Assembly: GCF_900188415.1 (NCBI RefSeq) | Contig: NZ_FZNV01000007.1 | Span: forward strand, 62,001 to 126,000 | Source of the DNA: Maribacter sedimenticola | Lineage (GTDB): Bacteria; Bacteroidota; Bacteroidia; Flavobacteriales; Flavobacteriaceae | Length of the DNA: 64,000 bases | Direction of reading: 5' to 3' | Shown here: one piece after another, positions 34,275-62,100 of the stretch | Layout of the letters: each line of letters opens with the position of its first letter | Position numbering within the stretch: position 1 is the first letter of the stretch | Made by a program: the position numbers and the translations under genes | Notes under the pieces: model-generated | The model's input: the letters and a program-made list of their open reading frames with translations, nothing else | Told to the model about the DNA's origin: nothing | The model's database searches: none

Positions 34275-35357
34275 CTAACCGTTCACGATTTTCTCCTGAT
34301 GGTTAATGGACTCTTGATGAATTGCCTTGAACATTCTTAAAACAAATTCCTCGCTCAACCCTTTGCTTTCACCCTCTAATATCATGGCGCCTAAAATCTG
34401 GTTCCATCTATTTGATTGTAAAACGGCTACGTTTTTCTGTTTTTTAAGTTCGCCAATACCGTCGGATACTTTCATACGTTTACCCAACATTTCTATCAAT
34501 TGACTATCTATGACATCTATTTGAGCCCTTAGATTACTCAATTGTGAATTGTACTCCGCCTCTGGATCACTTTCCTTCCTGATCTTAAGATCTCTCATGA
34601 TCTGCACCAATTTTTCTGGGGTAACTTGTTGAGCAGCATCACTCCAAGCGTTATCTGGGTCATGATGCGTTTCTATCATCAATCCGTCAAAATTAAGATC
34701 TAAAGCAGTTTGGGATACATCAAAAATCATATCTCTCTTTCCTGTAATATGAGATGGATCGTTAATCAAAGGCAAGTCAGGAAATTTATTCTGGAACTCA
34801 ATCGCCATTTGCCATTCCGGGATATTCCTATACTTGCTCTTCTCATACGTAGAGAAACCTCTATGAATTGCTCCCAACTTTTTAATACCTGCGGTGTGCA
34901 ACCTTTCAATACCACCTAGCCATAACGCCAAATCTGGATTTACCGGATTTTTAACCAACACAATCTTATCAGTACCTTCAAGGGCATCTGCCAATTCTTG
35001 CATAATGAACGGACTTACCGTTGATCGAGCTCCAATCCATAACAAATCGATATCATGTTCCAAAGCCAACTCTACATGAGCACGGTTAGCAACCTCAGTA
35101 GCGGTTTTCATTCCGGTTTCGGCCTTTACTTTTTGAAGCCATTTTAGGCCCAAGGCCCCTACTCCTTCAAAATTTCCTGGACGGGTACGTGGTTTCCATA
35201 TACCTGCTCTGTAATAGTTTACATCGGTATCTTTTAGGGAGTGTGCTATACCTAACACTTGTTCCTCGGTTTCCGCACTACATGGCCCTGCTATTACTAG
35301 TGGATGGTCTAGTTTTAAATCATCCAACCATGTTCTCATTTGTTTTGAATTTTCCAT
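34275..35357 (-). CDS. Bifunctional DAHP synthase / chorismate mutase
   Basis: First step of the shikimate pathway joined to the branch step towards prephenate. Of 360 residues, about 1-255 are a class I KDPG-aldolase-type DAHP synthase (VIAGPCSAETEEQ, YRAGIWKPRTRPGNFEG, LINDPSHITGKRD, GLMIETHHDPDNAWSDAAQQ). Residues about 265-350 are an AroQ-type chorismate mutase (LRAQIDVIDSQLIEMLGKRM). This fusion is common in Bacteroidetes. It is last in the aromatic operon and is followed by a terminator. Confidence 0.94.
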   Translation of the reverse strand: MENSKQMRTWLDDLKLDHPLVIAGPCSAETEEQVLGIAHSLKDTDVNYYRAGIWKPRTRPGNFEGVGALGLKWLQKVKAETGMKTATEVANRAHVELALEHDIDLLWIGARSTVSPFIMQELADALEGTDKIVLVKNPVNPDLALWLGGIERLHTAGIKKLGAIHRGFSTYEKSKYRNIPEWQMAIEFQNKFPDLPLINDPSHITGKRDMIFDVSQTALDLNFDGLMIETHHDPDNAWSDAAQQVTPEKLVQIMRDLKIRKESDPEAEYNSQLSNLRAQIDVIDSQLIEMLGKRMKVSDGIGELKKQKNVAVLQSNRWNQILGAMILEGESKGLSEEFVLRMFKAIHQESINHQEKIVNG

Positions 35358-35362
35358 TTTAA

Positions 35363-36232
35363 TTAATCTATTTCTTGTTTAACGGTATTCTTTTTTAAAA
35401 TTCCTTTTATTTTATTGGTATTGTTCATTTCATTATAAATGCCTTCGTAATCATCATTAAGCAACAGCTCCTTGAATGCCGTAAGGTTTTGAATATACTC
35501 CTCTAACGTTTCTACAACATTGTCCTTATTCTGCTTAAATATTGGTGTCCACATAGCGGGCGAGCTTTTTGCCAAGCGTACCGTACTTTCAAACCCACTA
35601 CCTGCCATATCAAAAATATCGCGCTCGTTCTTTTCTTTCTCGATAACCGTTTTACCCAACATAAATGAACTAATGTGCGACAAATGCGATACGTAAGCTA
35701 TGTGCTTATCATGTGCTACAGGATTCATATATCTAATACGCATACCTATTGCCTGAAAAACCTTCAAAGCTCTTTCTTGTAACTTAAAAGCGGTTAGCTC
35801 AACTTCACAAATAATATTGGTCTTGTCCTTAAACAAATTGTTTATTGCTGCGGACGGACCCGAAAACTCCGTTCCCGCAATGGGGTGGCATGCCAAAAAA
35901 TTTCTTCTCTTTGGATGATTCTCAAGCACTTTACAGAGTAAAGATTTAGTGGAACCAACATCAAAAACTACACAATCTTCTTGTACGGCATCCAAAATAA
36001 TAGGAAGCTCGGTAACCATAACATCTACCGGTATACTTACAATGACCATATCTGCCAATTGTAAATCTTGATAGGTAGCCGCCTTATCTATAATACCCAA
36101 AGACAATGCCTCAGCTAAATTTGCTTCATTGGATTCTATGCCATAGACGGTGACATTGTCGAATGCCGACTTTATGTCCTTCGCCAAAGAACCTCCTATT
36201 AAACCGATACCTATTACAAATACATTCATCAC
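35363..36232 (-). CDS. tyrA: TyrA, prephenate dehydrogenase
   Basis: NAD-dependent oxidative decarboxylation of prephenate to 4-hydroxyphenylpyruvate for tyrosine. The 289 residues have the Rossmann motif GIGLIGGSLAKDI at the start, then DVGSTKSLL and the catalytic region CHPIAGTEFSGPSAA with the conserved His. HKHIAYVSHLSHISSF lies further on. No ACT or chorismate mutase domain is attached. It lies 2 bp after the aminotransferase and 5 bp before the DAHP synthase gene. Confidence 0.93.
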   Translation of the reverse strand: MMNVFVIGIGLIGGSLAKDIKSAFDNVTVYGIESNEANLAEALSLGIIDKAATYQDLQLADMVIVSIPVDVMVTELPIILDAVQEDCVVFDVGSTKSLLCKVLENHPKRRNFLACHPIAGTEFSGPSAAINNLFKDKTNIICEVELTAFKLQERALKVFQAIGMRIRYMNPVAHDKHIAYVSHLSHISSFMLGKTVIEKEKNERDIFDMAGSGFESTVRLAKSSPAMWTPIFKQNKDNVVETLEEYIQNLTAFKELLLNDDYEGIYNEMNNTNKIKGILKKNTVKQEID

Positions 36233-36234
36233 AT

Positions 36235-37380
36235 TTAAAATCTTGCGATTGCTTCTTTTATTTTATCTTCTGAAATACATAATGAAAAGCGAATATAACC
36301 TTCACCATTGCTTCCAAAAATAGTCCCAGGTGTTATGAACAGATCTTTCTTGTACAGGATATCATCTATAAATTCTTCTGATGATTTGCTACCCTGTGGC
36401 AATTTTGCCCATACGAACATACCGACTGCATTTCTGTCATAAGTACAACCCAAGGTATCTGCTAATTGAAAGATCAATGCCCTACGCTTACCATAAACAT
36501 TGTTCAATTCCTCAAACCAATCGTCCGTACTTTCCAGAGCGGCAATTGCACCTTTTTGTATACCGTAGAACATACCGGAATCCATATTGCTCTTCACCTT
36601 TAAAATTGCGTTGATATGTTCATCGTTACCCAATACAAAACCAACACGCCATCCGGCCATATTAAATGTCTTACTTAGGGAATTCAGTTCCAAACATACA
36701 TCCTTTGCATTTTCAATACTCAAGATACTTGCTGGATCGGAATTCAACACAAAACTATACGGGTTGTCGTTCACCAACAGAATATCATTCTTTCTGGCAA
36801 AGGCCACTATTTTTTTAAACTGGTCGCGCGTGGCCGTAGCTCCTGTGGGCATATGTGGATAACTTAGCCACATAACCCTTACCTTGGACAAGTCTTGCTT
36901 TTGCAATTCCTCCAAATCTGGGAACCAACCGTTTTCGTCCGTAAGGTCATAATATTTAGGAACAGCACCTACCAAATTGGTAACCGATGTATAGGTAGGA
37001 TACCCCGGGTTGGGAATCAATACCTCATCTCCTTCGTTCAAAAAAGCAAGGCTTATATGCATAATACCCTCTTTAGACCCCATTAACGGTAAAATCTCCG
37101 TGTCCGGGTCTGCAGTAACTTGAAATCGCTGCTTATAAAACTGAGCTATAGCCTTCCGTAATTGCGGTAATCCTTGATAACTTTGATATTGATGCGCACC
37201 ATTTTCGGTAACAGCTGTCTGTATTGCGTTCAATACCTTTTTAGAAGGAACCAAATCTGGACTACCAATACCCATATTGATGATAGGCCTACCTTGAGCC
37301 ATTAAACCACGTACTTCTCTTAATTTTTTGGAGAAGTAGTATTCCTGTATGCTATTTAACCTTTCGGCCGTACGTATCAT
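36235..37380 (-). CDS. Fold-type I PLP aminotransferase, aromatic operon
   Basis: 381 residues of the class I/II aminotransferase family, with the cofactor Lys in SLSKTFNMAGWRVGF. GSKEGIMHISLAFL, NPGYPTYTSV and MWLSYPHMPTGA complete the PLP site. Its place between pheA and tyrA, with a 4-bp overlap with pheA, suggests it transaminates phenylpyruvate and 4-hydroxyphenylpyruvate. By sequence alone it could also use methionine or diaminopimelate precursors. Confidence 0.88.
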   Translation of the reverse strand: MIRTAERLNSIQEYYFSKKLREVRGLMAQGRPIINMGIGSPDLVPSKKVLNAIQTAVTENGAHQYQSYQGLPQLRKAIAQFYKQRFQVTADPDTEILPLMGSKEGIMHISLAFLNEGDEVLIPNPGYPTYTSVTNLVGAVPKYYDLTDENGWFPDLEELQKQDLSKVRVMWLSYPHMPTGATATRDQFKKIVAFARKNDILLVNDNPYSFVLNSDPASILSIENAKDVCLELNSLSKTFNMAGWRVGFVLGNDEHINAILKVKSNMDSGMFYGIQKGAIAALESTDDWFEELNNVYGKRRALIFQLADTLGCTYDRNAVGMFVWAKLPQGSKSSEEFIDDILYKKDLFITPGTIFGSNGEGYIRFSLCISEDKIKEAIARF

Positions 37381-38204
37381 TGTCTTACATTTTTATATTC
37401 ACCCAACACCTTAAAGTCTTCCGCCATGATGTCCAATAGACTTTTAGCTTTGGAAAAATCAGCATATTTCGCAAAAGTAACATCCACGAAAAAGGCATAT
37501 TTCCATGGTGTTTCTATTACCGGCAACGATTGTATTTTTGTCAAATTTAATCTGCAATCGCTCATTACATTAAGCACTGCGGCCAAACTACCCCTTTTAT
37601 GGTCGGTTATGAACCGTACTGAAGCTTTTGAAATTTCGGCCTCTGGCAATACCTTATTTTTTGTCTTTACAATGATAAAACGAGTGGCATTATTTTTAAT
37701 GGTCTGTATGTCGCTCGCTACGATGTCCAACCCATATAATTCTGCCGCTACCTTTGGCGCAATTGCCGCAACTTGCTTTAAATTTTGTTCCTGAATCCGT
37801 TTGGCGGTTTCTGCGGTATCCATATCCTCCACCAATTTTATGTGTGGAAATTGCCTAAAATATTCCTTGCATTGCAACAGTGCCATTGGGTGTGAACTTA
37901 CCTCCTCAATATCCTCTATCCACTGCCCCTTAAGAACCATTAGATGATGATGGATGTTTAAATAATATTCCCCTATAATATGTAAGTTATTATGATTCAC
38001 CAGCGCATAGTTGGGAATTATAGAGCCTGCTATGGAATTTTCAATGGCCATAACACCCTGGTCCGCTTCATTGGACAATAATTTGTCTACCAAAACATCA
38101 AAAGAAAGGCACTCTACCAACTCAATATCGTCCCCAAAACAATCCTTTGCTACCTGATGATGATTGCTCCCCTTTATTCCCTGTATGGCTATTCTTAGAC
38201 TCAC
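37377..38204 (-). CDS. pheA: PheA, prephenate dehydratase with divergent ACT domain
   Basis: Makes phenylpyruvate from prephenate. The 275 residues start IAIQGIKGSNHHQVAKDCFG. The catalytic part carries ENSIAGSI and the Thr-Arg-Phe motif NNATRFIIV. A C-terminal ACT domain follows at about 195-270. There the Phe-binding motif usually read ESRP is QSLP (KIQSLPVIETPW) and GALV is GSLA. This may weaken feedback inhibition. It is first in the operon, behind a leader-peptide attenuator. Confidence 0.93.
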   Translation of the reverse strand: MSLRIAIQGIKGSNHHQVAKDCFGDDIELVECLSFDVLVDKLLSNEADQGVMAIENSIAGSIIPNYALVNHNNLHIIGEYYLNIHHHLMVLKGQWIEDIEEVSSHPMALLQCKEYFRQFPHIKLVEDMDTAETAKRIQEQNLKQVAAIAPKVAAELYGLDIVASDIQTIKNNATRFIIVKTKNKVLPEAEISKASVRFITDHKRGSLAAVLNVMSDCRLNLTKIQSLPVIETPWKYAFFVDVTFAKYADFSKAKSLLDIMAEDFKVLGEYKNVRQ

Positions 38205-38229
38205 TTTACCTACGTTTTATTCAAAAAAA

Positions 38230-38253
38230 AAGTTCCGATGTATATCGGAACTT
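38230..38253 (-). terminator. Attenuator terminator of the aromatic operon
   Basis: On the minus strand, AAGTTCCGAT / ATCGGAACTT (10-bp perfect stem, ATAC loop) followed by an unbroken run of T. It lies between the leader peptide and the pheA start, so it can end transcription early. A CGGGACT segment at the end of the leader ORF can pair with AGTTCCG of the left arm as antiterminator. Confidence 0.88.
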
Positions 38254-38278
38254 AGATTCTATTTTATATTAAAATATA

Positions 38279-38350
38279 CTACAACAGTCCCGTACCTCTC
38301 TTAAAAAAGAAGTAAAAATAAAAACCGTTCCAGAAATATTTTTTTGTCAT
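38279..38350 (-). CDS. Aromatic leader peptide (attenuation), 23 codons
   Basis: Too short for standard gene calling. ATG at 38350 opens a 23-codon frame ending in TAG at 38281-38279. Residues 5-16 read YFWNGFYFYFFF: six Phe, three Tyr and one Trp in twelve codons, followed by KRGTGLL. It lies in the 271-bp untranslated leader of pheA and is followed 25 bp later by the attenuator terminator. This is the layout of ribosome-mediated attenuation: starvation for Phe or Tyr should stall the ribosome and allow the CGGGACT:AGTTCCG antiterminator. A partial -10 box (AATATTTG) lies at 38446-38439. Confidence 0.85.
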   Translation of the reverse strand: MTKKYFWNGFYFYFFFKRGTGLL

Positions 38351-38475
38351 CACTTTTGTAATATGAGGCTAATGTAGTAATTATATTTAAAAATGGATGT
38401 TTTAGCTATAATTTTTTTGAAATTTTGAATTTCTATCTCAAATATTCGAGGTTTTGTGTTAATTATCTACAATTT

Positions 38476-38973
38476 TTACCATTTAAATGCTAAACCTAAT
38501 CCTGCTCCATTAGTAATTGGTTCTATTCTAAATGTTGTTTGATCATCAAACTGTTTGTTATAAGTTAAGATTGCTCGCCTTCTAGATTTGCTAGCACTAT
38601 TCATATAAATAAGCCCCACTACAGCCCCAACTATACCTCCTGCCATGGGACCAACAGCATTTATTGCCTTATCCCGTTTGGATAATGATGGATCATCATT
38701 CAATAATTCAGATGTTGCCCAAAATACACCTACAAACTCACCTACTAAAGCAATACCTGCAACCACATCTTTTGTATTCGCCTTTTTCCAATGCGCATAT
38801 ACATCTTCATTTTTAGAAAAAATACTTTTTACTTCTGCTTTGGTAATTTCCTTATCATCCTGGTAATATTCCATGCCCCACATAGTAGGAAACATTGTAA
38901 TTTCCTGTGATTTCACATTGGAGCAAACCAATATAACCAAGATTGAAAAGAGGTAGAACTTAATTAATTTCAT
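38476..38973 (-). CDS. Exported/membrane protein of unknown function
   Basis: 165 residues with a signal peptide (MKLIKFYLFSILVILVCSNV, cut after KSQ). Two hydrophobic stretches follow (VVAGIALVGEFVGVFWATSEL and NAVGPMAGGIVGAVVGLIYM), probably membrane helices with glycine zippers, and the end is a strand-like GAGLGLAFKW. No family recognised. A 34-bp gap separates it from the upstream membrane protein, so they may be co-transcribed. Confidence 0.6.
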   Translation of the reverse strand: MKLIKFYLFSILVILVCSNVKSQEITMFPTMWGMEYYQDDKEITKAEVKSIFSKNEDVYAHWKKANTKDVVAGIALVGEFVGVFWATSELLNDDPSLSKRDKAINAVGPMAGGIVGAVVGLIYMNSASKSRRRAILTYNKQFDDQTTFRIEPITNGAGLGLAFKW

Positions 38974-44560: not shown

Positions 44561-44675
44561 TTGGGCGTTCGGGCGGGCTTTACGCTATATTTTTTCTATT
44601 TGATCAAACATTTAAACTTGACCCGGACTTCGTTCAAAAATAGAAAAAGATGCCGCTGCAATCCCTAACGCATTA
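44561..44675 (+). ncRNA. Flavo-1-like structured RNA element
   Basis: The sequence TTGGGCGTTCGGGCGGGC...GCTATA near the start and ATGCCGCTGCAATCCCTAACGC near the end matches what I remember of the Flavo-1 RNA motif common in Bacteroidetes. GCGTT (44565-44569) pairs with AACGC (44667-44671). A long inner stem joins TTTTTCTATTT (44591-44601) to AAATAGAAAAA (44638-44648). It lies between metH and metF, antisense to them. The function of the motif is unknown. Confidence 0.65.
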
Positions 44676-48828: not shown

Positions 48829-48910
48829 TTTGCGCTATAACAAGTTCTATGTTCGCTTTATTTTATTGTGAAACCAAGTAAGGAAAGGAATGGGAAACGT
48901 TCTTTCTTCA
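48829..48910 (-). promoter_or_regulatory. Expression platform of the SAM riboswitch
   Basis: The leader between aptamer and ATG contains GGTTTCACA (plus-strand 48867-48875), a perfect 9-nt complement of TGTGAAACC in the aptamer (48977-48985). It is a candidate anti-aptamer strand. No intrinsic terminator is present, so control may be translational or Rho-linked. Confidence 0.55.
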
Positions 48911-49018
48911 GTTATCTGTCCTTATTTACAGGATAGAATGTAGCACCTTCTTTTCCATTTTGGAAAGGGTTGCCAAGGTTTCACAGGGTCTAGTCCCTCC
49001 GCCTTTCTTGATAACAGT
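48911..49018 (-). ncRNA. SAM-I (S-box) riboswitch upstream of metH
   Basis: On the minus strand: GTTATC...GATAAC closing stem P1, then AAGAAAGGCGGAGGGAC. TGTGAAACC and TTGGCAACCC follow, then AAGGTGCTACATTC before P1 closes. These are the conserved core segments of the SAM-I aptamer in order. High SAM should lower expression of the downstream metH and metF genes. Confidence 0.92.
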
Positions 49019-59114: not shown

Positions 59115-62100
59115 TTACCCTTTCTCCGCTATTCGCAATATATCCCCAAAGACACCTCTTGCTGTTACTGCTGCGCCTGCACCTGCGCCTTGTATTACTA
59201 ACGGATTTTCACCGTAAGATTCCGTATAGATCTCTATTATGGAATCCGACCCTTTTACTTGCCCCAGGGCACTTTCTTTGGGTACGGAGACCAATTTAAC
59301 ATCTAATACTCCTTTCTCTTTCTGAAGATTGCCATGCAGATCACCTACATAACGCAATACATGGTCTGGTTTTTGGTTCTTCTTAATTTCATTGAACTTG
59401 GTATCCAACACTTCTAAATGCTGCAAGAAGAAATCTACCTCACCATCTTGTAGTTTTTTAGGTATCAGGTTTTCAATATTGATATCTGCAAACTCATTAT
59501 GCAAATCCAGTTCACGTGCTAAAATCAATAATTTACGCCCAACATCATTTCCAGAAAGATCTTCACGTGGATCAGGCTCTGTAAATCCTTTTTGCATTGC
59601 ATCTTTCAAAATCGATGAAAAAGGTACATCCACTTCTGAGAATGTATTGAAAATATAACTTAAAGAACCTGAGAACACGCCTTTTATCCTTGTTATATTC
59701 TCTCCGGATAAATGTAACAACTTAATGGTATCAATCAATGGCAATCCTGCTCCTACATTGGTTTCGTACAGATATTGCTTTTGATTTTTTTGCAATTCTT
59801 CCCTCAATAACTGATAAAAATCGTAACGCAAGGTATTGGCAATTTTGTTAGATGACACAATATCAAAACCATGCTCTACAAATTCAAAATAGTTGGCTAC
59901 GAAATCTTTACTTGCCGTATTATCAATTACAATAAGGTTCTCTAAATGGTGACGCTTTGCAAATTCAAAGACGTCATCAACCTTATACGGTTTTCCTTTC
60001 TGCTCCAGTTGTGTTTTCCAATTCTTGGCAATACCCTTTTCATTCAACAATATTTTTTTAGAGTTTGCAATTCCAAAAACCCTTAGGTCTAATTTCTTGC
60101 GCTCTTTTATGGACTTTGCCGATTTTAAAATCTGCTCTATTAACGTACCGCCTACATTCCCGTGACCGAAAATCAAAATATTAATTTTCTTGCTGATGCC
60201 GAACACCTGACCGTGCATAACGTTGACCGCCTTATACAAATCCGATTTCTTCACCACCAAACTTACGTTCTTGCCAGATACCGTATTATTGAACAACAAC
60301 GGTACAATCTGGTTTTTGATCAATGCATTGAAAGGATTGTGAAAAGTACTTAAATCTTGACCTACGATAGATATGATAGATACATCATCCATCACCGTAA
60401 TCATATTTACATCCTTTGATTCAAAATCGTTGCTAAACTCATTTTCCAGTGCCAGCTTTGCCCTTTTTGCCTTATCCTTTTTCACCACAAGTCCTATTCC
60501 CCTTTCAGATGATCCTTGGGAAATAATACTCACACTAATATTGCTAGATTGTAAGGCTTTAAAAATACGGGCATCTACCCCTACTTTCCCTAACAAGCCA
60601 CGACCTTCTATATTGATCATAGCAACATCTTCTATAACCGAGAGCGACTTTATACCTTCTTTACTGGATTTAGCGCTTATTAAAGTACCCTCATTATCAT
60701 CATTATAGGTATTTAAAATACGTAACGGAATGTTCTTCTCGATTAAGGGAATTATGGTTTTGGCATGTAAAATAGTAGCTCCAAAATTGGCAAGCTCATT
60801 TGCTTCTTCATAAGATAGGTTAGCCAGTCTTTTCGCCTCCGGCACATAATCAGGATTTGCAGTATAAATACCATCAACATGGGTATAATTCTGTAATTCT
60901 TCGGCATCTAAGAAATTAGCCAATAATGCGGCGGAATAGTTACTACCGTTCCTACCTAAAGTAGTTGTCTCGTTCTCCACTGTAGAAGCTATAAAACCTG
61001 TAACTACCGCTACCGTATCACTCGGAATTTCTGCAAATTTTAAAAGCACCAATTCTTTGGATTCATTTTCAAGTACCTTGGCGTCACCAAAGGTATCATC
61101 GGTCTTAATGACTTCACGAGTATCTACAAGTTTGGCATTGATTCCTTTACCGATCAATAGCTTGGTTACCAGTTTGGCAGAGATCAACTCGCCATACGCC
61201 AACACCTCATCTTTTATTTTGGCACTATAATCTCCCAACAAGGAAACTCCTTCATACAGCTTTGCCAAGCCCTTGAATTCCGCAGATAGATTTACGTTGG
61301 AATAGGTATGTTTTTGATACTTCTCCAGCGCTTCAAAATCTGACCTATAATCTTTTTCCTTGGCTGCTTTCTCTAGCATATCCTCTAGCTGATCCGTAGC
61401 CTTTTCCCTGGCGGAAACCACCATGGCTACATTCTCATTGTTCTTGACCTTTTGTGTCACGATATCCAAAACACGCTCAAGTCCCTCGCCATTGCTTAAC
61501 GATTTACCACCAAATTTTAAGATTTTGATTTTCTTGATATTACCGTTGGCATTAAAAATACCGGTCAGCAATTTTTCCATCTGATCAAACTCGATCAAAA
61601 AGGCATCATGCCCATGCAAAGATTGTACTTCACCATAGGTAACATTACTCTTTGCCTGCGCCAATTGCTTAAAGGTATCTTTGTTTTCTTGGGCGGTAAA
61701 GAACATATCGGAATCTACCCCGATTATATGAATATTGGTATCGCTATTTTGTAGTTTAATGAAATTCTCATCACCATCCCTAGTAACATCAATGGTCTTT
61801 AACAATTGATTCATCAACTTATACGCAGACAATTGAAAACGCTCTTGTAGCTTATCTCCATGGTGCATTAACCAACTTTCTACATTAAAAACCTTAAGCT
61901 CCTCATTGGTACTTCGTTTAAATCGCTCTTTAAAGGAAGCCGGGGTCCTATAACATAACATGGCATGCATACGGGCATCATGCACAGGTTGTTTAGAGTT
62001 CACTAAAAACTGTTCCTGTATTTGGCAATTGGCTATTAACCAATCGGTCGATTTCCAGTCAGATGCCACAGGAATCAAATGTTCTGTCAGCGTTGGGTGC

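Follow-up and report, generated by a model that had tools for sequence, protein, structure and literature searches.

Upstream of pheA in Maribacter sedimenticola, a short open reading frame crowded with aromatic codons is followed by a strong hairpin, and the question raised by this locus is whether the two together form a switch through which aromatic amino acids would control the genes beyond. We analysed a stretch of 64,000 nucleotides (the window, whose positions are used throughout) from this 4.27-Mb genome, for which a sequence-only reading had proposed ribosome-mediated attenuation before pheA. That proposal is supported by a conserved leader, by alternative RNA pairings and by a characteristic spacing, and from this comparative evidence we hold it highly probable that the element is a ribosome-mediated transcription attenuator of the Phe/Tyr operon.

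The genes in question lie on the minus strand and almost abut one another. The first, pheA, encodes prephenate dehydratase (37377..38204, GTG start; PF00800 over its cut-off, with the best NCBIfam match below its own) and overlaps by 4 nt a class I/II aminotransferase gene (36235..37380; PF00155). These are followed by tyrA, encoding prephenate dehydrogenase (35363..36232; NF006307 over its cut-off), and by a DAHP synthase/chorismate mutase fusion (34275..35357; PF00793 and PF01817). We therefore take this series to be a Phe/Tyr operon. Our sample of relatives comprises the best 80 of 94 confirmed pheA loci, at which the aminotransferase gene stands beside pheA in all 80 cases and tyrA in 77; DAHP synthase was detected at none of the 80, because its gene would lie beyond the 2-kb flank retrieved. 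The 14 loci whose PheA is nearest to that of the window (86-92% identity) all belong to Maribacter.

The leader ORF, MTKKYFWNGFYFYFFFKRGTGLL with a TAG stop, occupies 38279..38350 on the minus strand and has 23 codons, starting with the ATG at 38350. Residues 5-16, YFWNGFYFYFFF, contain ten aromatic residues in twelve, exactly as had been claimed. The two strands of the window together hold 635 ORFs that begin with ATG and have 12-45 codons; among them ten aromatics in 12 codons is a value unique to the pheA leader, the runner-up having 7. Twenty dinucleotide shuffles of the window produced no equal: the maximum was 8, and ORFs with at least 7 numbered 10 in total. The leader RNA is also unusually stable, its 140 nt reaching a folding energy of -34.5 kcal/mol where shuffled versions average -20.6 (z -4.1; none of 200 shuffles was as good).

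A pattern search places the motif TACATTAG at 38369..38376 on the minus strand. It follows the pattern TAnnTT[TA]G, which we take to be the -7 promoter element of Bacteroidota. Of 80 leaders (that of the window and 79 others), 77 have this pattern no more than 60 nt 5' of the ATG, and 66 of the 81 matches begin 25-27 nt 5' of the ATG; in the control, 378 of 4000 mononucleotide shuffles contain it. Judged by this motif, transcription would start approximately 15-20 nt 5' of the leader ATG, and the short ORF rich in aromatic codons would thus lie near the putative 5' end of the operon transcript. A -7-like motif so near the ATG therefore leaves little space for a further sensor in the 5' UTR. 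Bacteroidota make little use of Shine-Dalgarno sequences.

Between the leader ORF and the first structural gene stands an intrinsic terminator, and here too the original description proved accurate. Its hairpin, termed 3:4 (38230..38253, minus strand), was recovered by a hairpin search and by pair conservation; it consists of 10 perfect pairs, 4 of them GC, around a loop of 4, and leads into a run of nine T (38223..38231, minus strand). The interval 37900-38600 contains three terminator-like sites, compared with a shuffle mean of 0.2, and two of the three are this pheA hairpin read on both strands. Within the left arm of the terminator lies segment 3, AGTTCCG (38246..38252), the right arm being segment 4 (38239-38230). 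Segment 2, CGGGACT (38286..38292), lies in the last leader codons and is complementary to segment 3 at 7 positions, one of them a G-U; this complementarity had been pointed out before, and the pairing is conserved over leaders. Segment 1, which had been overlooked, is AACGGTTTT at codons 8-10 (38321..38329), found from folds and pair counts, with 38291-38283 as its partner when the leader is not translated. The 1:2 structure also encloses an inner hairpin, defined by pair counts, whose 5' arm TACTTCTTT (38306..38314) lies inside the leader and whose 3' arm is AGAGAGGTA (38293..38301); all of these segments are on the minus strand. Because segment 1 is able to pair with segment 2, the set of four segments known from classical attenuation is complete, and we predict that 2:3 acts as antiterminator, 3:4 as terminator and 1:2 as protector. 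Segment 1 would thereby provide a route to termination when the leader is untranslated.

Is the arrangement conserved? An alignment of pheA leaders from related Flavobacteriaceae had been suggested as a check, with loss of the mini-ORF in relatives as the adverse outcome. We find an aromatic leader and a terminator upstream of pheA at 79 of the 80 loci; at the exception (L041) only 155 nt upstream of pheA are present, in which the terminator is visible. Of 299 genomes from the family, 244, representing 202 of 236 genera, have a match at E 1e-3 to a covariance model made from 43 leaders. Taking the 20 weakest among the matches listed, 18 lie directly before pheA (within ~75 nt), and for the remaining two pheA is on another contig (G083) or has no match in the genome (G150). 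We also tested 20 of the 55 genomes lacking a covariance match, of which 12 have no pheA match and 8 do. In seven of these 8 there is a leader with at least 7 aromatics in 12 codons; most of the tested genomes with pheA but no covariance match therefore reflect divergence, not loss.

The proposed helices were assessed in 43 leaders, each less than 90% identical, chosen from 78 distinct ones (80 minus 2 identical); loci L082-L141 and L236-L245 were left out of the leader counts. As a control the partner strand was slid by 1-3 columns, although the structures were read from the window, itself one row of the alignment, which alone favours the real over the slid versions. In the antiterminator 2:3, 97.3% of cells are paired compared with 21-56% when slid, and the covariation score is 0.272 compared with 0.210 when shuffled (0 of 500) and at most 0.110 when slid. 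Double changes affect 3 of its 7 pairs, a number reached by 37 of 500 shuffles, and 10 cells, slid versions reaching 10 and 8. The terminator 3:4 is paired in 93.9% of cells (23-54% slid), with a covariation score of 0.362 (at most 0.116 slid) and five double-change pairs, which 99 of 500 shuffles also reach. An antiterminator that excludes the terminator is thus conserved as a pairing. For 1:2 the figures are 87.8% of cells (45-62% slid) and a score of 0.224 (at most 0.173 slid), with double changes in 16 cells and 8 pairs, compared with as many as 18 cells and 8 pairs in slid versions. In all three helices the double-change counts discriminate less sharply than the covariation scores do. We regard 1:2, with its weakest covariation, as the least secure of the helices because its double-change counts are poorly separated from those of the slid controls; its aligned pairs are often broken in the Polaribacter/Lutibacter and Kordia groups. 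Examples of matching sequences in segments 1 and 2 are AACGG/CTGTT, AATGG/CTATT, ACTGG/CTGGT and CAAGG/CTTTG, and an RNA role of segment 1 would account for the retention of the non-aromatic codons Asn8-Gly9.

The position of segment 2 relative to the reading frame varies. In Maribacter it is inside the last codons, and in Polaribacter and Lutibacter it is on or just past the stop codon; its position shifts while its pairing is kept, and segment 2 therefore tracks the RNA, not the peptide. To the 43 near leaders we added a far set of 55, made up of 35 further family members, 8 leaders from other families of the order and 12 from other orders, none identical to a near leader. This set left out 23 of 80 loci having fewer than 7 aromatics in 12 codons and 2 of the 57 leaders then obtained, which had no terminator by our rule. 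A duplex test of the leader end against the left arm of the terminator gave p≤0.05 for 40 of the 43 near and 42 of the 55 far leaders, the 0.05 level being missed by 3 and 13 respectively; outside the family, 15 of 20 leaders reached it.

With the start of segment 2 defined by the best duplex of the leader tail with the left arm of the terminator, we measured how far it lies beyond the final aromatic codon in the main cluster. Of the 43 near leaders, 42 have a distance of 7-12 nt (median 10, sd 1.2), as do 50 of the 55 far ones (median 10, sd 2.1), compared with 15.6% and 13.2% of mononucleotide-shuffled tails; the leaders are related, so these trials are not independent. By group, the far leaders within this range are 31 of 35 family members (13.4% of shuffled tails), 7 of 8 leaders from other families (13.4%) and 12 of 12 from other orders (14.5%), giving 19 of 20 outside the family. 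Beyond the codon in its A site a ribosome covers about 10 bases more, and with the last aromatic codon in that site segment 2 would therefore begin at the ribosome's edge. Taking this footprint size, the codon cluster is so placed that a stalled ribosome would leave segment 2 free while one at the stop codon would cover it, and the spacing of 7-12 nt fits a ribosome paused until a charged aromatic tRNA arrives.

How far does the element reach beyond the Flavobacteriaceae? In other families of the order, 8 of 16 regions upstream of pheA have a leader with at least 7 aromatics in 12 codons, compared with 12 of 1600 dinucleotide shuffles. In other orders of the class, 14 of 26 regions (the best 26 of 34 matches) have one, compared with 9 of 2600 dinucleotide shuffles. 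The reverse-strand control gave 1 of 16 and 0 of 26, respectively. No aromatic leader was seen at the three tested loci (L167, L169, L170) of a family with 0.6-Mb genomes, and in some of the class-level negatives pheA may lie inside a longer operon. Across the class Bacteroidia the peptides have little in common except their richness in aromatic residues. Relatives of the predicted switch are thus widespread in Flavobacteriaceae and recognisable in other orders of the class. Outside the class we chose 20 regions among the matches listed, drawn from many families and from open frames of less than 350 aa, and not at random; 3 of them (L251, L254, L263) have an aromatic leader before pheA, compared with 2 of 1000 mononucleotide shuffles. 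PheA in these three genomes is 43-46% identical to the query, compared with 32-37% in the remaining 17. Most simply, this pheA lineage would have brought its own leader into other classes of the phylum, and for these three loci a transfer of pheA together with its attenuator is possible.

These features suggest how the switch would work. When aromatic tRNAs are charged, the ribosome would pass the F/Y/W codons, reach the stop codon and cover segment 2; segment 3 would then be free, and the 3:4 terminator would form before pheA. When Phe, Tyr or Trp is short, the ribosome would be expected to wait at an aromatic codon, upstream of segment 2, which would be left free to pair with segment 3 once this is transcribed. 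No terminator would then form, and the operon would be read. If the leader is untranslated, the 1:2 pairing would allow the terminator to form.

Folding calculations on the RNA as far as segment 3 give 2:3 when the ribosome footprint is masked at codon 5 or 7, and 1:2 when there is no ribosome. With codon 16 masked, 1:2 forms around the ribosome; a ribosome placed at the stop codon covers segment 2, and segment 3 pairs with bases of the leader that lie 5' of this ribosome. The calculation allows pairing around the ribosome, and we consider the pairings that span it in these last two states sterically doubtful. The minimum-energy fold of the full-length leader has the terminator in all five ribosome states tried; antitermination must therefore be kinetic, decided before segment 4 is made. 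In classical attenuation the decision likewise falls before segment 4 is made.

There are other possible explanations for a conserved aromatic ORF at this position. The one that survives best, though we judge it very unlikely, is that the leader is an arrest peptide that senses a free aromatic amino acid in the exit tunnel rather than tRNA charging. TnaC is an arrest peptide of this kind, sensing free amino acid in the ribosome exit tunnel, and it is true that YFWNGFYFYFFF is very constant in Maribacter and its neighbours, the single Trp included. However, the constancy of N8-G9 coincides with RNA segment 1, 11 of the 43 near leaders and 29 of the 55 far ones lack Trp, the frame or length of the tail varies (L018, L065, L071, L075, L077-L080), and the class-wide peptides, as noted above, are alike in little but aromatic richness. 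Still less probable is that the ORF encodes a functional small protein, such as a membrane peptide, that stands before pheA by chance. The peptide is indeed hydrophobic and conserved, but its aromatic residues interchange, its C-terminal part tracks RNA pairing instead of peptide sequence, and its distance to segment 2 is maintained. Least credible of all, and rejected here, is that the hairpin terminates transcription of the upstream gene and that the aromatic ORF arose by chance in AT-rich DNA: a same-strand gene (38973-38476) does lie ~220 nt before the hairpin, and AT-rich DNA does give rise to many Phe codons, but the 20 shuffled windows hold nothing comparable, the leader and hairpin persist at 79 of 80 loci while the upstream gene is found at 13 of 80, a promoter-like motif lies at a fixed distance between that gene and the leader, and the pairing of segment 2 with the hairpin arm recurs from leader to leader, so that conservation, motif and shuffles are all contrary to it. 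The element is thus very probably an attenuator of the classical ribosome-mediated type, with specificity for Phe, Tyr and Trp.

Ribosome-mediated attenuation has long been known in kind. The pheL-pheA system of enterobacteria has a short Phe-rich leader peptide, alternative RNA pairings and a terminator before pheA, whereas the Maribacter leader mixes Phe, Tyr and often Trp, ahead of an operon that makes Phe and Tyr. The corresponding Rfam family, RF01859 (Phe_leader), aligns over its full length to 38351-38224 with 24.2 bits (E 0.059), far below its gathering score of 55, and the Maribacter leader is therefore not a member by sequence. Rfam 15 gave no family at cut-off on the pheA leader, riboswitches and T-box included, and relaxed thresholds gave the same outcome. 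The E. coli trp attenuator has four segments in a scheme of 1:2, 2:3 and 3:4 pairings, and the Maribacter element resembles it in these four segments and in their logic; the operon and the sequence are different. In the window, unlike the trp attenuator, the closing codons of the leader ORF overlap segment 2, and the 5' UTR is likely to be very short.

Leader-peptide attenuation in Bacteroidota is hardly described in the literature we searched. A transcriptome study of Flavobacterium psychrophilum reports a structured 5' element upstream of pheA, conserved in other genera of Flavobacteriaceae and without an Rfam match (PMC9723704); clues to leader-peptide attenuation at amino-acid operons are stated there apart from the pheA element. 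This element has the same position in the same family as ours, and the text, to the extent available to us, gives no anatomy, peptide or amino-acid specificity, on which the supplement may hold more. We therefore do not claim to be the first to see an element before pheA in Flavobacteriaceae. The sequence-only reading had known of no described case in the family; in that respect it has to be amended, given this conserved pheA 5' element, while the anatomy was not found in the literature searched. For B. thetaiotaomicron, short ORFs in long 5' UTRs, reminiscent of attenuation leaders, have been described in a paper whose main text does not mention pheA (PMC7366714). Within a literature search of partial coverage we found no account of the leader anatomy, of its spacing or of how far the element extends in class Bacteroidia, and Lopatovskaya, Seliverstov and Lyubetsky 2010 (Mol Bio 44:128) may report Bacteroidetes cases. 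What may be new is this anatomy, spacing and class-wide reach; the type of attenuator is itself known, of which this would be an unusually well-supported example.

Candidate leaders stand before other amino-acid genes of the same genome, the only one in which the His, Trp and Thr candidates were sought. On the minus strand of one contig, hisG (L171, G000:C11) is preceded by a His-rich ORF, MKNTFYFYNRMKNRTTHHHIHTHAQAR, and a strong hairpin, whose T run is short and which does not pass our terminator rule; a conserved 5' element at hisG is also among those reported for F. psychrophilum (PMC9723704). The best trpE match (L225, G000:C17), which at 439.5 bits is under the family cut-off of 517.7, is preceded by the ORF MKNLNVNTWWWSNLRKTS, with three consecutive Trp codons, and by a hairpin and a T-rich stretch. 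A Thr/Ile-rich ORF, MDCEKTDITINITSVTNCYGSTTAWFTLRG (L231, G000:C11:52500-53800, minus strand), stops 29 nt short of the open frame for a homoserine dehydrogenase, the N-terminus of which is presumably aspartokinase-like, and is a possible Thr leader. The genome's second homoserine dehydrogenase domain is at 59136-59741 on the minus strand, in an open frame of 1128 aa. No leader was seen in the 400 nt upstream of ilvD. The window itself has only two matches to Rfam 15 at gathering score, both on the minus strand: a SAM riboswitch (48909-49017, 72.2 bits) and a Flavo-1 RNA (44567-44674, 45.8 bits against a cut-off of 42).

Taken more broadly, we think it reasonably probable that this attenuator of the aromatic operon is ancient, having been passed down throughout class Bacteroidia and having travelled with its pheA lineage into other classes of the phylum. 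Its peptide and sequence would drift freely, the fixed elements being the aromatic codons, the 2:3/3:4 switch and the spacing of ~10 nt. Together with the His, Trp and possibly Thr leaders of the same genome, this would make leader-peptide attenuation a general control of amino-acid operons in Bacteroidota. The near-constant spacing would serve as a comparative read-out of where the edge of a stalled Bacteroidota ribosome lies on the mRNA, and the element would provide a concrete regulator of aromatic amino-acid synthesis in a large phylum of marine and gut bacteria, about whose gene control little is known.
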